Assembly (NCBI RefSeq): GCF_900129405.1
Contig: NZ_FQVQ01000016.1
Coordinates: 1 to 64,000 of the forward strand
DNA length: 64,000 nt
Source: Flavobacterium fontis
GTDB lineage: Bacteria; Bacteroidota; Bacteroidia; Flavobacteriales; Flavobacteriaceae
Reading direction: 5' to 3'
Part shown: positions 189 to 63,321 of the stretch, one piece after another
Layout of the letters: each line of letters begins with the position of its first letter
How positions within the stretch are numbered: the first letter of the stretch is position 1
Made by a program: the position numbers and the translations under genes
The notes under the pieces: model-generated
The model's database searches: none
What the model was told of the DNA's origin: nothing
Seen by the model: only the letters and a program-made list of their open reading frames with translations

Positions 189-246
189 GTCGCCGCCTTG
201 TTTTTTGAAAGACCTTTACAGTAGTGTATAGGTCTTTTTGTTTTTA
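189..246 (+). other. Second 5S-tail-like fragment plus a second terminator
   Basis: The 16-mer GTCGCCGCCTTGTTTT found at 80-95 (end of the 5S gene) recurs exactly at 189-204. It is again followed by a hairpin (AAAGACCT at 208-215, AGGTCTTT at 230-237) and a T-run. The bases between 132 and 188 look like neither 5S nor coding sequence. I infer a relic of another rrn operon end, for example left by recombination between rrn copies. A functional second terminator in tandem is equally possible. Confidence 0.5.
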
Positions 247-440
247 TTATAAATTGTGAATGATGAATTATAAATGACATGTAGAACCTGCCCATTGGCA
301 GGTTTTTATTATATAATAAATTGTGAATGATAGATTATAAATGATTGGTTGCCCATTGGCGGGTTTTTATTATATTATAAATTGTGAATGATAAATTATA
401 AATGATACGTAGAACCTGCCCATTGGCAGGTATTTTTTTG
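246..440. repeat. Three blocks of AT-rich heptanucleotide repeats, each followed by a palindrome
   Basis: Each block has five 7-bp units of the type ATTATAA / ATTGTGA / ATGATGA (246-280, 313-347, 374-408). Blocks 1 and 3 are followed by the hairpin ACCTGCC-catt-GGCAGGT with a T-run (285-310 and 412-435). In block 2 the left arm of the hairpin is degraded. The composite unit is about 64-67 bp. An 84-codon minus-strand reading frame across 335-589 has repeat-like composition and is not taken as a gene. No gene is visible anywhere from 97 to 648. Confidence 0.75.
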
Positions 441-597: not shown

Positions 598-606
598 AAT
601 TATTTT

Positions 607-641
607 GAATTATGAATTATGAGTTATGAATTATGAGTTGC
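607..641. repeat. GAATTAT heptanucleotide repeat, five units
   Basis: Five consecutive 7-bp units: GAATTAT, GAATTAT, GAGTTAT, GAATTAT, GAGTTGC. The array ends 8 bp before the stop codon of the DUF4268 gene. Confidence 0.7.
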
Positions 642-2612: not shown

Positions 2613-3464
2613 CTACAATACAGGTTCTACGGTATAGCCTAAATCTTTAAGCAGCTGTAAAACGCCTTCTTTGCCTGGTAAATGTGCGGCTCCTACCCCA
2701 ATAAACGTGGGCTTTTCTGCCATGATTTTGGGTAATCGCGATTGCCAATTTCGGTTGCGTTTGTTGAGGAGTTCTTCTTCGAATTGGGCATAAAATTGGG
2801 TTTCTGAACTTTTGAATAATTCCATCAACGCATCGAGGTCTTCTTTGGCGTAACAGGCCAACATTTTTTCGGTTTCTGAGCCGTTGAATTCGATTCCTTT
2901 TTCGGCCAATTTTACCAGTTCTTGGGCTTGTTCTTTGTAGGGAATGGCATCAAAAACGGCCATTTGTTCCAACACTTTTTCGAGTCCGATGATGGCTTCG
3001 TTCTGACTTTTTGCGACTTTCATCAATTCTTGTTCCACCGATTGCATAGGACAGGTTAACATTTTTGGGTACAACATGGCGGTGACCATAAATGGTTTCA
3101 TGGTATTTACCATTTTGGCGGAATATCCCAAGTGTTTCTTTAAAAACGCATCAACCGTTGCAAAGTCTTTGGCAGAAAGCAAGGAATCCAAACGCTGCCC
3201 ATTTTTCATGTTTATCCCAGCCATCATGACCATTTGTAGGCTTGGGTCGTCCATGTCTAATTCTAGACAAACTTGTTGTGTTTTCTCCAAGGCGTCCAAT
3301 ACCTTTGGCTTTAACGTTGCATCACAGGTAATATGAATGGTCCCAAACACATACGAGGGTTGGGTTAATCCATTCCCAGAAACTTTCCACAATAATGTTT
3401 TGGGGGTTTGTGCATAATTCCACACCGAGCACAATAGACCAAGGAGTAGCGCAAATTTTTTCAT
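2613..3464 (-). CDS. TraB/GumN family protein
   Basis: Exported protein of 283 residues with a signal peptide (MKKFALLLGLLCSVWNYAQ, cleavage after ~19). Family marks are FGTIH at 40-44 near the mature N terminus, an acidic ELDMDD segment, and a C-terminal GVGAAHLPG followed by a short helix ending GYTVEPV. TraB/PrgY/GumN proteins have a fold related to EreA and ChaN and are suspected metalloproteases, but the function here is not known. It is the last gene of a three-gene unit: its ATG overlaps the stop of the membrane protein upstream (TAATG), which follows an ECF sigma factor. Co-regulation with that sigma factor is likely. Confidence 0.88.
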   Translation of the reverse strand: MKKFALLLGLLCSVWNYAQTPKTLLWKVSGNGLTQPSYVFGTIHITCDATLKPKVLDALEKTQQVCLELDMDDPSLQMVMMAGINMKNGQRLDSLLSAKDFATVDAFLKKHLGYSAKMVNTMKPFMVTAMLYPKMLTCPMQSVEQELMKVAKSQNEAIIGLEKVLEQMAVFDAIPYKEQAQELVKLAEKGIEFNGSETEKMLACYAKEDLDALMELFKSSETQFYAQFEEELLNKRNRNWQSRLPKIMAEKPTFIGVGAAHLPGKEGVLQLLKDLGYTVEPVL

Positions 3465-4087
3465 TACAAATCAATTTTTTTCAATTCGTTATAATTTCGG
3501 AACAAACGTTTCATTAACGTACCATAAATGAGGTAGTAAAACAAGGCTGCAATACCAAAGAACGCCAGCAAGAAGACGACTAAAATGATGATCGTGATCA
3601 CCATAGCTTTGGGATTGTGGCTAATTTTTTGCATTTGCGGATTGGCAACAAAAGCCAAAACAAATCCTGCGATTGCACTCAATCCAATCATGATTAGGTT
3701 ATACCAAACATAGTATTTTACGGTACGTCGTGTTTTCAAGATGTCTTGCATCAATTTTTTGGTCGAACGTAAAGTTGAAATGTTTTTATAATTGACGTAG
3801 AAGGCATAGATAAACGCCGCGACCACCGCATAGTTGACATAGGTGATTATTTTGAAGTAGGGAATCATATATTCGGTATGATTTTTAACCATCACTTCGT
3901 CGGTGTTAAAAAACAAACTAATCGCCGTCCAAAGCGTTACTTCTAATATGCTGATAATCAAAATCCATTTTACAATCGATGAAGATCGCTTGTGAATCAT
4001 CGCAGCGATATCCGACTCTTGTAATTGTGGAAAAGGCTTTGTTTGTTTGTTCCAATCCTTTTTTAATAAATCCAATTCATTCATCAT
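3464..4087 (-). CDS. Four-helix membrane protein next to an ECF sigma factor, possible anti-sigma partner
   Basis: Protein of 207 residues. A cytoplasmic N terminus of ~37 residues is followed by four predicted membrane helices at roughly 38-60, 77-98, 128-147 and 162-189, and a short basic tail. No catalytic motif is seen. It starts 3 bp after the ECF sigma gene and overlaps the start of the TraB gene, so all three form one operon. By position it could be the membrane regulator of the sigma factor, but it lacks a recognisable zinc anti-sigma (HXXXCXXC) motif, so that role is inference. Homologues in flavobacteria are sometimes mis-annotated as beta-carotene monooxygenase. Confidence 0.8.
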   Translation of the reverse strand: MMNELDLLKKDWNKQTKPFPQLQESDIAAMIHKRSSSIVKWILIISILEVTLWTAISLFFNTDEVMVKNHTEYMIPYFKIITYVNYAVVAAFIYAFYVNYKNISTLRSTKKLMQDILKTRRTVKYYVWYNLIMIGLSAIAGFVLAFVANPQMQKISHNPKAMVITIIILVVFLLAFFGIAALFYYLIYGTLMKRLFRNYNELKKIDL

Positions 4088-34735: not shown

Positions 34736-34791
34736 CGAAGTTGGGGGTTTTGTTAATGAGGCAATATGTCAATGAGGCGATGTGCCGATTT

Positions 34792-35064
34792 GGTTGTCGG
34801 TTGATGGTTACCGGTTGATGGTTGTCGGTTGCCGGTTGTCGGTTGTCGGTTGCCAGTTGATGGTTGTCGGTTGTCGGTTGTCGGTTGCCGGTTGTCGGTT
34901 GCCGGTTGTCGGTTGTCGGTTGTCGGTTGCCGGTTGTCGGTTGACGGTTTTCGGTTGATGGTTGTCGGTTGTCGGTTGATGGTTGTCGGTTGTCGGTTGT
35001 CGGTTGCCAGTTGATGGTTGTCGGTTGATGGTTGTCGGTTGTTGGTTGCCGGTTGTCGGTTGAT
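34792..35064. repeat. GGTTGTC heptanucleotide array, 39 units
   Basis: Exactly 39 uninterrupted 7-bp units (273 bp). GGTTGTC dominates, with variants GGTTGCC, GGTTGAT, AGTTGAT, GGTTACC, GGTTGAC, GGTTTTC and GGTTGTT. There are no indels across the array, and a longer pattern recurs (GCC unit, AGTTGAT, GTC unit at 34848-34868 and 35002-35022). A reading frame through it (34829-35014) translates to a pure heptapeptide repeat and is not a gene. Confidence 0.95.
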
Positions 35065-35077
35065 GGTTTTTTAGCTT

Positions 35078-35200
35078 ACTGCATACTGCTTACTGAATAC
35101 TGAATACTGAATACTGAACACTGCTTACTGCACACTGATGGCTGAACACTGAACACTGCCCCGACTGAACACTGAACACTGCGACTGCGACTGCGACTGC
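35078..35200. repeat. ACTGAAT/ACTGAAC heptanucleotide array
   Basis: Twelve 7-bp units such as ACTGCAT, ACTGCTT, ACTGAAT (x3) and ACTGAAC run from 35078 to 35161. Two more ACTGAAC units follow, then a run of the 6-mer ACTGCG. It starts 13 bp after the GGTTGTC array. From 35201 to the methyltransferase start at 35264 I see nothing further. Confidence 0.9.
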
Positions 35201-45192: not shown

Positions 45193-45242
45193 AAATGTGA
45201 AATGTAAAATGTAAGAAAATACTTAATTTTAGTCAACTTTGT

Positions 45243-46079: not shown

Positions 46080-46121
46080 TAATTCTTAATTTATAATTCA
46101 TAATTAATAATTCAAAATTTC
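46080..46121. repeat. TAATTCA heptanucleotide array, six units
   Basis: Six 7-bp units: TAATTCT, TAATTTA, TAATTCA, TAATTAA, TAATTCA, AAATTTC. The stretch from here to the mnmA promoter (46122-46258) is non-coding, moderately GC-rich and unassigned. A single GTAATTC occurs again at 46243-46249. Confidence 0.65.
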
Positions 46122-46258
46122 ATAAAGGTCTATCCGCCAAAAGTCCGCGTGCTGTTTCACACCGCTTTAGATTTTTCGCTTTTCCCTGCTTGACGCTAGG
46201 CAACTTCTTCAGGAAAACGGCTCCCTAACCTAGCATTCGTAATTCATAACTTTTCCGT

Positions 46259-53981: not shown

Positions 53982-54047
53982 GCACAGTGCGGATTTATGG
54001 GAATTTTTTAACAAAGGATGGGCGGGATTAGGAAAACGAAATTTTTT

Positions 54048-54146
54048 TAGCCCCAATAGAGCCGATATCCTATTTTTTTGGCTTTTTCGACGCTGCGATT
54101 GGGGCCAAAAAATAGATAAAGGCGAAAGCGGGAATAGCTCCAAAAA
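54048..54146 (+). repeat. Conserved structured intergenic element (family 2, copy a)
   Basis: It starts TAGCCCCAATAGAG and ends GGCGAAAGCGGGAATAGCTCC-like sequence followed by A6. Internal GCCCCAAT (54050-54057) and ATTGGGGC (54098-54105) are complementary. A second element with the same start, the CGAAAGCGGG core and the GCTCCAAAAAA end lies at 62382-62487. I recall such elements as very common in flavobacterial intergenic regions and possibly identical to a described RNA motif (Flavo-1), but I cannot confirm the name. It fills most of the 338-bp gap between lysA and sucC. Confidence 0.55.
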
Positions 54147-57037: not shown

Positions 57038-57442
57038 TTACTTTTCTTTCTTCTTGCCGTTTTTGTAGTTGACTTTCTCCACAATAACGGGTTTGGCATT
57101 GAATTTTTTTACGGGTTTTTTGCCGTAGGATTTGGGCGTCGGCCCTTTTGGTTTGTCGCTGACTTCCTGCTTGGGTGGGGTTTTCTTGTGTGTGGCAATG
57201 ACCTCCAGCGGATTCTTAGGCGCGTCTTTTGTGCCCCGTAAGTGAATGATTAGTCCGTTTAAGAAATTGCGCAGAATTTGATCGCCACATTCCATGTACT
57301 TCGGGTGTTCCGCATCCCGGAAAAAATTACCCAATTCGCCTTTCGAAATGCGGAAATCCACCAAGTCCAAAATTGCTACAATCTGGTCATCGCGCAACTG
57401 TAAGGCTACCCGGAGTTTTTTAAAAATATCGTTGTTGTTCAT
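57038..57442 (-). CDS. DUF1456 family protein
   Basis: Protein of 134 residues. The N-terminal DUF1456 (YehS-like) repeats run over about 1-70 (NNNDIFKKLRVALQL, ISKGELGNFFRDAEHPKYMECGDQILRNFLNGL). A basic, Lys/Pro-rich tail (about 85-134, ending NYKNGKKKEK) could bind nucleic acid. The function of DUF1456 is unknown. Its start codon is separated by only four bases from a 196-bp heptanucleotide array that fills the whole gap to the upstream esterase gene. Confidence 0.9.
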   Translation of the reverse strand: MNNNDIFKKLRVALQLRDDQIVAILDLVDFRISKGELGNFFRDAEHPKYMECGDQILRNFLNGLIIHLRGTKDAPKNPLEVIATHKKTPPKQEVSDKPKGPTPKSYGKKPVKKFNAKPVIVEKVNYKNGKKKEK

Positions 57443-57446
57443 TTTT

Positions 57447-57642
57447 TCAGTGTTCAGTGTTCAGTGTTCAGTGTTCAGTGTTCGGTGTTCAGTGTGCAGT
57501 GTTCAGTGTTCAGTGTTCAGTATTCAGTGATCAGTAATCAGTGTTCACTAATCAGTATTCAGTGATCAGTAATCAGTGTTCACTAATCACTAGTCACTAA
57601 TCACTAGTCACTAATCACTAGTCACTAATCACTAGTCACTAA
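57447..57642. repeat. TCAGTGT/TCACTAA heptanucleotide array, 28 units
   Basis: 28 uninterrupted 7-bp units (196 bp). The DUF1456-proximal half is mainly TCAGTGT; the distal part changes to TCAGTAA and TCAGTGA and then alternates TCACTAA/TCACTAG. It occupies all but six bases of the gap between the DUF1456 start (57442) and the esterase stop (57645). Confidence 0.95.
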
Positions 57643-57644
57643 AC

Positions 57645-58454
57645 TCAAAACAGCCAAAGGTACGCTTTTTCAAACTGTTCTCGCCAGAGTTTTTCGTTGT
57701 GTTGTCCCCCTTCGATAATGGTACTTATATTCATTTTTTTACAGGAACAACGGCGGCTATTGATCCATAACTCAATCGCTTTCAGGTCTTTTACCATATC
57801 GTCATCTCCTTCTTGGTCGCCGCACATCAAATAGATTCGCGCTTTGTAGTGGGTCGTGTTCTCAAGAAGTTGCCGTAACGGTTCCCGATTAATCCAAAAC
57901 GCAGGCGAGAAACAACCTACTTTTCCAAAAACATCCGGGTAGGTAATCGAGGCATAAAAGGCCATTAATCCGCCCAACGAACTCCCAAAAATCGCCGTGT
58001 GTTTGGCTTGGGGTTTGGTGCGGTAATGGCGGTCGATATAGGGTTTCACCGTTTCTACCATAAACGCTAAAAAAGCATCCCCTTTCCCGCCACCATATTT
58101 GGCATGCGGAAAAGGCGTGAGTTCTTCGATACGTTTGTCTCCCCCGTGATCAATACCGACTACGATAGCAGGATTTTTTTGTTGGTCCATGATTTCATCG
58201 ATGCCCCATTCGCCGGAATAGGCCGTTTTGGAATCAAAAAGGTTTTGACCGTCGGGCATGTAGATTACGGGATAGCGTCGAGCGGTTTGGGTATAGTTTT
58301 TTGGGACATAAATCCGAATGGTTTTGGAGGTCCCCAATTGCGGAGCCTCCAGCGTAATGACTTCGAGTTGAAGCGCCGCCGTAGAAGGTTGCGCGTATCC
58401 AATCCCATGCATTACGCAGCAGAAAATCCATAATCGTAGCAGTAGCGTTCTCAA
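57645..58454 (-). CDS. Exported esterase-D-type alpha/beta hydrolase
   Basis: Protein of 269 residues with a signal peptide (about 1-21). It matches the esterase D/Fes/IroE group: SKTIRIYVPKNY, YPVIYMPDGQNLFD, AIVVGIDHGGDKR, nucleophile elbow FGSSLGGLMA (Ser), a likely Asp in YLMCGDQEGDD and His in EGGQHNEKLW. The group includes siderophore-releasing and acyl esterases; the substrate cannot be told. It is divergent from terB across 41 bp. Confidence 0.87.
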   Translation of the reverse strand: MRTLLLRLWIFCCVMHGIGYAQPSTAALQLEVITLEAPQLGTSKTIRIYVPKNYTQTARRYPVIYMPDGQNLFDSKTAYSGEWGIDEIMDQQKNPAIVVGIDHGGDKRIEELTPFPHAKYGGGKGDAFLAFMVETVKPYIDRHYRTKPQAKHTAIFGSSLGGLMAFYASITYPDVFGKVGCFSPAFWINREPLRQLLENTTHYKARIYLMCGDQEGDDDMVKDLKAIELWINSRRCSCKKMNISTIIEGGQHNEKLWREQFEKAYLWLF

Positions 58455-62535: not shown

Positions 62536-63198
62536 TTAAATTGATGATTCGATTAAGATTAAGTCACCGGTTTCATGCGTAATGGTAACGAGGCCGTCTT
62601 GCGCCACATGATTGCTGCTTCCAGTGCGATATCCCAGCGTGAGCGAATCCTCATGAAGGGGATAAAAAAGGTTTTGACTGCGGATTCCGTGCACCGTTCC
62701 AATGGGAATCAACGAAAGGACAGTGTCTTTGGGATACCATTTTTCAAAATGACGGGGGAGAAGATGGAGTTTGGAATAATCGTCAAAAAAGACAATTTTC
62801 AATGCTTCGCGGTAGGCCGCCATGATGGTCACATTGTGTAGGGTATGGTCCATCCGAAATCCGGTGGCCCAAACGACATTTACGGCTTTGTGGCCCCGCT
62901 GAATAAGGTAATCAAAGGCTTTTTCTAAGTCAGTTTTATTTTGATCGGGCGCAGGTACAATTTCGAGCGGATAATGTTTTTCTTTAAATGAATATGGGTC
63001 AAAATCCCGGTCAAAGTCGCCCAACAGCACATCGACTTTAATCCCCAATTCAACCACGCGTTCCATAGCCGAGTCCAGGACAATGACCAAGGGTTGCCAT
63101 TCCAAAAGCTGGTGGAGTAATTCCAACGAACAGGCGGCTCCATTGGCGATTATCAGTGCGGGCTCTTGGTCGTCGCGAACGATGTGGTGGGAGGACAT
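62536..63198 (-). CDS. Thiamine diphosphokinase
   Basis: Enzyme of 220 residues that makes thiamine diphosphate from thiamine and ATP. Typical motifs are LIIANGAACS, VLLGDFDRD, the NKTDLEKAFDYLIQRG block that binds Mg-ATP, VVWATGFRMDHTLHNVTIM, and IPIGTVHGIRSQNLFYPL in the C-terminal thiamine-binding sandwich. No TPP riboswitch is visible. Its start codon is followed upstream, after three bases, by a heptanucleotide array that must form its 5' leader or promoter region. Confidence 0.92.
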   Translation of the reverse strand: MSSHHIVRDDQEPALIIANGAACSLELLHQLLEWQPLVIVLDSAMERVVELGIKVDVLLGDFDRDFDPYSFKEKHYPLEIVPAPDQNKTDLEKAFDYLIQRGHKAVNVVWATGFRMDHTLHNVTIMAAYREALKIVFFDDYSKLHLLPRHFEKWYPKDTVLSLIPIGTVHGIRSQNLFYPLHEDSLTLGYRTGSSNHVAQDGLVTITHETGDLILIESSI

Positions 63199-63201
63199 GG
63201 G

Positions 63202-63321
63202 TTGGTGATTGGTGGTTAGTGACTGGTTATTAGTGACTTGTGACTAGTGACTAGTGATTAGTGATTAGTGACCTGCCTATGCCGGCAGGCAGGTTAGTGA
63301 CTAGTAATTAGTGATTAGTGT
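63202..63321. repeat. TTAGTGA/CTAGTGA heptanucleotide array with an inserted palindrome
   Basis: Ten 7-bp units (63202-63271), a 22-bp insertion containing ACCTGCC...GGCAGGCAGGT (63271-63294), then four more units (63294-63321). The array abuts the thiamine diphosphokinase start at 63198. The insertion lies exactly between two units. From 63322 to 63423 the sequence is AT-rich with no feature I can support. Confidence 0.92.

Follow-up and report, generated by a model that had tools for sequence, protein, structure and literature searches.

Heptanucleotide tandem arrays between genes of Flavobacterium fontis: dispersed unit families, turnover among close species and polarity towards genes

Tandem arrays of 7-bp units occupy gaps between genes in the 64,000-nt stretch of Flavobacterium fontis DNA analyzed here (the window). 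These arrays and those found elsewhere in the genome were biased to a period of 7 bp, had units common to several sites and species, turned over at orthologous positions, and were nearly absent from coding sequence. We concluded, with a probability of roughly 70%, that they are heptanucleotide SSRs of the kind called LSSR, STRR or VNTR, which fall into a few dispersed families and expand, shrink and vanish in tolerant gene gaps, with slippage or unequal recombination as the most likely cause. In this explanation, a few unit families would have become dispersed over this genome and those of close relatives, units would be gained and lost through slippage during replication or through unequal recombination, and intergenic DNA would tolerate the added length, in many cases directly after a stop codon (13 of 31 islands). 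The arrays would then be mainly tolerated, not needed.

Both TRF and direct layout of the sequence found arrays at all seven intergenic sites named in the original prediction (Table 1). The first of these sites, however, was best described by TRF as a 61-bp repeat, and the list was incomplete, as it missed the short AAATGTA array. The layout agreed that the 39 units at 34792-35064 and the 28 units at 57447-57642 follow each other without an indel; the latter occupy almost the entire gap between two genes. The main array at 34792-35064, which lies between divergently oriented rhomboid and methyltransferase genes, consisted of GGTTGTC (20 units), GGTTGCC (7), GGTTGAT (6), AGTTGAT (2) and four singletons. 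In the array at 57446-57582, the last CAGT word lay five bases from the DUF1456 start codon. None of the arrays in the window had a match in Rfam. The same search reported a 5S rRNA at positions 1-92, which the start of the window truncates, and, at 54045-54139, a Flavo-1 RNA with a score barely above the gathering threshold.

Table 1. Tandem arrays and embedded hairpins in the window.
Feature	Position	Strand	Basis and remarks
61-bp tandem repeat x2.9	245..436	none	TRF period 61; short ATTATAA-type heptamers and hairpin CCTGCCCATTGGCAGG inside
Hairpins within the 61-bp repeat	287-302 and 415-430		Hairpin search
Heptamer array ATTATGA/GTTATGA, ~5 units	602..639	+	TRF, layout
Degenerate 8-bp run (AATGAGGC/AATATGTC/GATGTGCC)	34751..34791	+	By eye in layout, not flagged by TRF; abuts the main array
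Main array GGTTGNN, 39 heptamers, zero indels	34792..35064	+	Layout, unit counts
Heptamer array ACTGNNN (ACTGAAT, ACTGCAT, ACTGAAC and others), ~12 units, interrupted once	35077..35181	+	TRF, layout
6-bp array ACTGCG x3.8	35178..35200	+	TRF
Short heptamer array AAATGTA x3.1	45193..45214	+	TRF
Heptamer array TAATTCA/TAATTTA, ~6 units	46080..46125	+	TRF
ACTGNNN array (sense ACACTGA)	57446..57582	-	TRF, layout; before DUF1456 gene 57038-57442(-)
TCACTAA/TCACTAG array	57566..57642	+	TRF, layout; 2 bp from stop codon of esterase gene 57645-58454(-)
TTAGTGA-type array	63205..63320	-	TRF, layout; upstream of thiamin pyrophosphokinase gene 62536-63198(-)
Hairpin CCTGCCTATGCCGGCAGG embedded in the TTAGTGA-type array	63272-63289		Hairpin search

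A sequence-blind detector of our own, covering periods of 2 to 30, was applied to 464 kb of this genome, comprising the window and 20 further stretches. It found 34 intergenic arrays, of which 24 had period 7, five period 8, one period 6, none period 9, one period 14, two period 15 and one period 23. Coding DNA contained two arrays, of periods 9 and 11, and none of 6, 7 or 8 bp. A first version of the detector gave 23 arrays of period 7 and two of period 14, with the other counts unchanged, and found zero arrays when the 464 kb were dinucleotide-shuffled five times. The excess of period 7 over 6, 8 and 9 and the enrichment of intergenic arrays over shuffled DNA were both in line with the original prediction. 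That prediction had also stated that all repeat sites share the 7-bp period; this held in so far as 7 was the commonest, but the 8-bp run and the ACTGCG run beside the main array depart from it, as do 8-bp arrays (AATGTGTC / ATTGCCAC) at other places in this genome. Period 7 is thus the commonest in an array-rich genome in which 8-bp arrays are a genuine minority. An 11-bp array, TATCCATACTT, on contig C26 (L050 17929-18103; TRF period 33 x5.2) was unlike both the 7- and the 8-bp families.

The genus sample covered 416 kb at 23 loci, three of which were those of the relatives identified by the rhomboid protein. Its intergenic arrays were four of period 7 and one each of 6, 11, 13, 14, 23 and 24, with none of period 8, and its coding DNA held one array of period 7 and one of 30. 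In the order sample (20 loci, 369 kb), four arrays of period 7 came from two genomes, one of the four lying on a contig chosen for its known GGTTG match (L103); the other five were single arrays with periods from 19 to 28, and none had period 6, 8 or 9. Stretches of two close relatives, which were picked where BLAST had located arrays, gave 45 and 33 arrays of period 7, zero and two of period 6, none of period 8, and one of period 16 in G255. As 7 was the commonest period in the own, genus and order samples, a process favoring 7 is likely, and to this extent the shared mechanism proposed from the common period was supported. Twenty stretches from other lineages (L123-L142), picked for ACTG arrays, gave 10 arrays of period 7, six of 8, one of 16 and one of 21, so that 7 led in them too but was not exclusive. 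The relative frequency of period 8 in these stretches means that the dominance of 7 may vary by lineage.

In this genome, ACTG arrays were located within about 100 bp of the contig end at the starts of C8, C12, C14 and C15 and at the end of C17. With at least five contig ends so close to ACTG arrays in draft assemblies, long arrays may have been collapsed or truncated. Assembly probably fails at the arrays, and the true numbers of units may be higher than those counted.

The unit sequences at the seven sites, which had been described as different, were only partly so, because three pairs matched after rotation or reverse complementation in the layout: GAATTAT (607) with TAATTCA (46080), ACTGAAC (within 35078-35177) with TCAGTGT (57447), and TCACTAA (57580) with TTAGTGA (63202). 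Over the genome, GGTTGNN was present at six sites, and ACTGNNN in 164 overlapping five-unit windows, with ACTGAAC, ACTGATT, ACTGTTG and ACTGATG as the commonest ACTG units of the own sample. In three close relatives, a 6.9-kb query from the window had 61, 35 and 101 matches, and many of those listed fell on its two array segments, indicating that the unit families are dispersed and common to the lineage. With a few families recurring in this way, the view that the arrays are not copies of one ancestor was not supported. Five successive ACTGNNN units were found in 47 of 198 genomes of the phylum and five of the reversed core GTCANNN in 29 of 198, a moderate preference only. GGTTG was rejected as a conserved core: by hand count, the pattern was present in 13 of 60 genomes (this one included) and its reversed control in 14 of 60. 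Since the two are about equally frequent, what is shared is the period and not the GGTTG sequence.

A stretch around GAAAATGTTCTTTCTAAGAAATA occurred 13 times in the genome at up to three mismatches; these 13 places (L055-L067; for example C25:74053, C17:40965-41438 and C26:18275) hold a dispersed composite module around GATTTGAAGATTTGAAAATGTTCTTTCTAAGAAATA. In the 11 module copies viewed, 8-mer words stood before the core and heptamers such as GACTTAC or GACTGTT after it, and some copies had a long AATGTGTC/GATGTGCC array ahead of the core. This arrangement of 8-mers and heptamers about a 13-fold stretch, together with the hairpins embedded within arrays, would fit dispersal by mobile elements, in which arrays are carried in composite modules or by a Y1 (IS200/RAYT) single-strand transposase. 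We regard this as very unlikely. The module core was absent from the window, and by hand count a Y1 transposase was present in 39 of 47 phylum genomes with ACTG arrays as against 106 of 151 others. This genome has one Y1 match (E 4.5e-8), and the array-rich genomes G087 and G187 have none, so a Y1/RAYT transposase is not required as the driver.

The preferred explanation, gain and loss of units in tolerant DNA, was examined at four gene gaps in four species. The three nearest relatives, G255, G256 and G257 (Flavobacteriaceae or Flavobacterium MAGs), have rhomboid proteins of 94, 89 and 80% identity, G255 being the nearest at 94%. At the 34792 site, the 39 units of this genome compared with about 1.3 unit in G255, and the GGTTGTC array was missing in G256 and G257, whose gaps are occupied by other repeats. 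By eye, a ~90-bp higher-order repeat of CAGCNNCT-like units was present upstream of the rhomboid gene of G257 instead of heptamers (L053 ~3400-3950). At the 46080 site, there were about five units in G255 and none in G257, and in G256 the matched flanks lay 32 bp apart, free of any array. At the 57446 and 63205 sites, where flank identity was 85-93%, each of the four species had the same families, with different counts, variants and embedded hairpins; G256 retained only about two TCACTAA-type units at 57446, and G257 only about four units at 63205. The distance from the DUF1456 start codon to the first CAGT word was five bases in all four species. GC-rich hairpins inside arrays, CCTGCC..GGCAGG here and CCCGAAGTTTCGGG-type in the relatives (L144, L145, L147, L148), differed between species at the same site.

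Unit counts therefore differed at all four gaps between close species, and the differences fit tandem repeats that expand and shrink in tolerant DNA. That two of the four gaps keep the same families in every one of the four species, however, argues against our main explanation.

The order of units was analyzed in arrays of at least eight units with at least three variants, using 500 shuffles. Identity at lag 2 (14 bp) was enriched in this genome (59 versus 31.6+-4.2 shuffled) and in G257 (91 versus 53.6+-5.0), with 0/500 shuffles reaching the observed value in either; identity at lag 1 was not enriched in these two (28 versus 33.3 and 46 versus 59.3). G255 showed enrichment at lag 1 (56 versus 38.7, 0/500) and a mild one at lag 2 (43 versus 34.8, 17/500). 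The lag-2 enrichment indicates that recent copying often took place in 14-bp moves, as would be expected if perfect 14-bp repeats were copied preferentially. Such moves point to homology-driven slippage or unequal recombination and, given that two of the three genomes were clearly enriched at lag 2 but not at lag 1, speak against the strict seven-base counter that had been proposed. The longest repeated block of the GGTTG array, five units in length, was ordinary (1252 of 2000 shuffles reach it). Growth at one array end was rejected, as homogeneity showed no polarity in 63 arrays (p=0.27 and 0.61), and so was loss of mismatch repair as a cause, since all 37 genomes examined, this one among them, have a MutS domain.

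Within ACTG arrays, variation was confined largely to three columns. The frame was set by the consensus word ACTG, with the next three bases taken as spacer. In eight arrays of this genome, where the rule was first seen, 5 of 32 core cells and 20 of 24 spacer cells were polymorphic. The test sets, which share ancestry with this genome and include some arrays that are mutual copies, gave 6/32 core and 17/24 spacer cells in G255 (8 arrays) and 3/40 and 24/30 in G257 (10 arrays). Six arrays from other lineages, a biased set picked for variable spacers, gave 5/24 and 16/18. Other frames showed the split weakly or not at all: the contrast was mostly non-significant for ACTA (p=0.13, 0.004, 0.5), TCAT (p=0.13, 0.3, 0.7) and AACC (p=0.2, 1, 0.49, 0.032), and variable columns did not cluster significantly in arbitrary frames (17 arrays, p=0.079).

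Plain slippage with neutral mutation should spread substitutions over all seven columns, and the sparing of the ACTG core argues against the main explanation in that form. Selection within the array would account for it: if only units with an intact core were copied, through re-annealing of the slipping strand or reading by an enzyme, mutated cores would be dead units, and no benefit to the host would be necessary. Such selection would explain both the fixed core with its free spacer and turnover without a host function. It nevertheless seems unlikely to us, as the lag-2 copying suggests that spacer identity counts too, polarity is left unpredicted, and the related idea of growth at one end failed in the 63 arrays above.

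The arrays also had a direction. Polarity was scored at the nearest gene border within 120 bp, and an array was called inward when its unit ran 5'-3' into the gene. ACTG arrays were inward in 15 of 17 cases in this genome and in 13 of 16 in other lineages, both sets being partly discovery data, and in 13 of 18 in G255 and G257 together, which are partly orthologous to those of this genome. ACTA arrays were inward in 8 of 9 cases here and in 15 of 18 in G255 and G257. TCATAAY and AACCNNN arrays followed no rule at stops (2:2 and 1:3), and their start-side arrays were all in sense (7/7; 3:0 and 4:0).

After discovery, the rule was fixed in writing, and 30 further regions were then fetched as a fresh test. 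They contained 36 arrays, of which six had no border in range, two were ORF-internal and 28 were scored. Inward orientation was found in 21 of the 28 (p=0.0125; 17:6 on the stop side, 4:1 on the start side), or in 22 of 30 when the two ORF-internal arrays are included (p ~0.016, by hand). For ACTG arrays abutting a stop codon, defined as 14 bp overlap to 12 bp apart, 30 were inward versus 2 (p=2.5e-7): 6:1 in this genome, 9:0 in other lineages and 15:1 at the fresh sites, where the 15 include one ORF-internal array (L250), an apparent ortholog pair (L269, L274) and several from G087. Stop-abutting arrays of G255 and G257 were 4:1 inward. Because of the ORF-internal array, the two apparent orthologs and the several arrays from one genome, the polarity p-values are too small.

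Strand composition was rejected as the cause of polarity, since single ACTG and CAGT words outside arrays numbered 19 versus 30 behind stops in this genome and 41 versus 43 in the genus and order samples, the former count being a mild lean in the direction of the rule. Start-side polarity could partly be an effect of ORF calling, as every reading frame of ACTGA units contains stops; at stops, this effect should act opposite to the observed polarity. A fixed register between stop codon and unit was also rejected (10 of 34 in one phase, the remainder spread). Of the 31 islands in this genome, with several in certain gaps, 13 abutted a stop and five a start, and their gene context was similar to that of background gaps (tandem 20, divergent 6 and convergent 5, versus 109, 40 and 26).

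Polarity towards genes is unexpected of neutral arrays and is a further point against the main explanation. It would be expected if the arrays were functional cis-elements, with the ACTG or ACTA core as a candidate RNA- or DNA-protein site repeated at 7-nt spacing, the core held by selection and the spacer free. Such elements would act in sense in 5' leaders and in antisense behind stop codons, possibly through proteins of the S1, Csp or Csr type, after the proposal of MacGregor for TAACTGA (PMC4679880). The sparing of core columns in ACTG arrays and the constant five-base DUF1456 spacing in four species agree with this, as does the report that TAACTGA arrays of BOGUAY are mostly forward before start codons, with the largest class 1 nt away (PMC4679880). 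We nevertheless consider a cis-element role rather improbable: the 39-unit array and the array at 46080 were absent from close relatives that retain the flanking genes, only five islands abutted a start against 13 at a stop, and the start-codon polarity may in part reflect ORF calling. Expansion and loss of tolerated repeats remains the explanation that we prefer.

Heptamer arrays are known from heterocystous cyanobacteria as STRRs. The arrays described here have a different host, the three nearest relatives being Flavobacteriaceae or Flavobacterium MAGs, and they share with LSSRs and VNTRs a 7-bp unit beyond chance, the lead of period 7 over its neighbors, and an intergenic location. In the 2007 survey of Mrazek, as cited by PMC4679880 and PMC4692102, heptanucleotides were the most abundant LSSR class in most genomes, and both papers credit that study with the proposal that slippage is tied to 7 nt. 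The arrays here resemble the LSSRs of that survey in being tandem and, as judged by dinucleotide shuffles, longer than chance. The original prediction knew of no described counterpart in Bacteroidota; this was mistaken, as TAACTGA arrays were reported from five genomes (PMC4679880) and VNTRs from F. psychrophilum (PMC4501049). The repeat class is therefore already known, including in Bacteroidota.

TAACTGA arrays of up to 43 copies were reported in Beggiatoaceae, Cyanobacteria and five Bacteroidetes (MacGregor 2015, PMC4679880). Most of those in BOGUAY are forward and precede a start codon, at a distance of 1 nt in the largest class, and Table 1 of that paper assigns 170 sets to 147 toward a start, 12 toward a stop, 6 at contig ends and 5 other, classes which tell what lies ahead of the array and not the distance. 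For F. litoralis, the paper reports forward orientation in 12 of 14 sets, at distances of 1 to 43 nt from the start that follows, and a single reversed set directly behind a stop codon (PMC4679880). TAACTGA rotates to ACTGATA, an ACTGNNN unit as found here, and its reported loci are like ours in being intergenic, with other heptamers in the gap, repeat-free shorter gaps in relatives and contigs ending in repeats (PMC4679880). The forward orientation, too, was seen here, in 15 of 17 own arrays (partly discovery data) and 21 of 28 fresh ones. TAACTGA arrays differ in using one heptamer, mostly before starts, with single-base variants rarely repeated in BOGUAY (PMC4679880), whereas in the present arrays ACTG is followed by three variable bases, and those abutting a gene stand more often behind stops. 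The exact ACTGATA unit was not among the commonest of the own sample; ACTGATA arrays were found in two genomes of the same family, G087 and G146.

For F. psychrophilum, 8 of 12 listed VNTR loci are heptamers and intergenic (one also intragenic), and eight VNTR loci, which may not be the same eight, had one to nine repeats in 53 isolates (PMC4501049). The VNTR unit AATTCAT, when rotated or reverse-complemented, is that of the arrays at 607 and 46080; these VNTRs have at most nine repeats, and no analysis of unit structure or polarity was found in PMC4501049. The heptamers GGGAATC of Xanthomonas and GGGGA(C/T)T of Nostoc are reported as mostly intergenic, and the conserved columns of the former are positions 1-4 and 6 (Rehm 2015, PMC4692102). 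They prefer the non-coding strand within 50 bp upstream of genes and the coding strand within 50 bp of stops, so that at either end of the gene it is the complementary strand that runs inward, the same mirror polarity as here (PMC4692102). The Xanthomonas GGGNATC heptamers form G-quadruplexes; units here differ, having at most GG and not three Gs. The heptamer GTGATTA of Helicobacter pylori, cited in PMC4692102, is identical to the TRF consensus at 63205.

The slippage and tolerance explanation leaves unexplained why the unit is 7, why a core is fixed among free positions, and why arrays point towards genes. We tentatively put forward, as a possible but doubtful extension, that one polarity rule applies across unrelated bacteria, with one strand of the unit running 5'-3' into the gene and carrying a fixed core and free bases. 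The strands in question would be ACTGNNN and ACTAATC here and, in the published cases, TAACTGA for Beggiatoaceae and, for Xanthomonas and Nostoc, the complement of GGGAATC; they would lie in sense before starts and in antisense behind stops. In a literature search with most subscription papers outside its scope, no paper joined these observations into one rule, and it is the joint rule of core and polarity that is worth following. If true, the polarity rule would mean one shared machinery that builds or reads 7-nt arrays at gene borders, not passive slippage. The array-rich genome, the four species with orthologous gaps, the fixed-core ACTG units and the polarity matched in two papers on other phyla provide a compact testable set. 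If the rule of core and polarity is general, the question of why bacterial microsatellites favor seven would become testable in cultured Flavobacterium.
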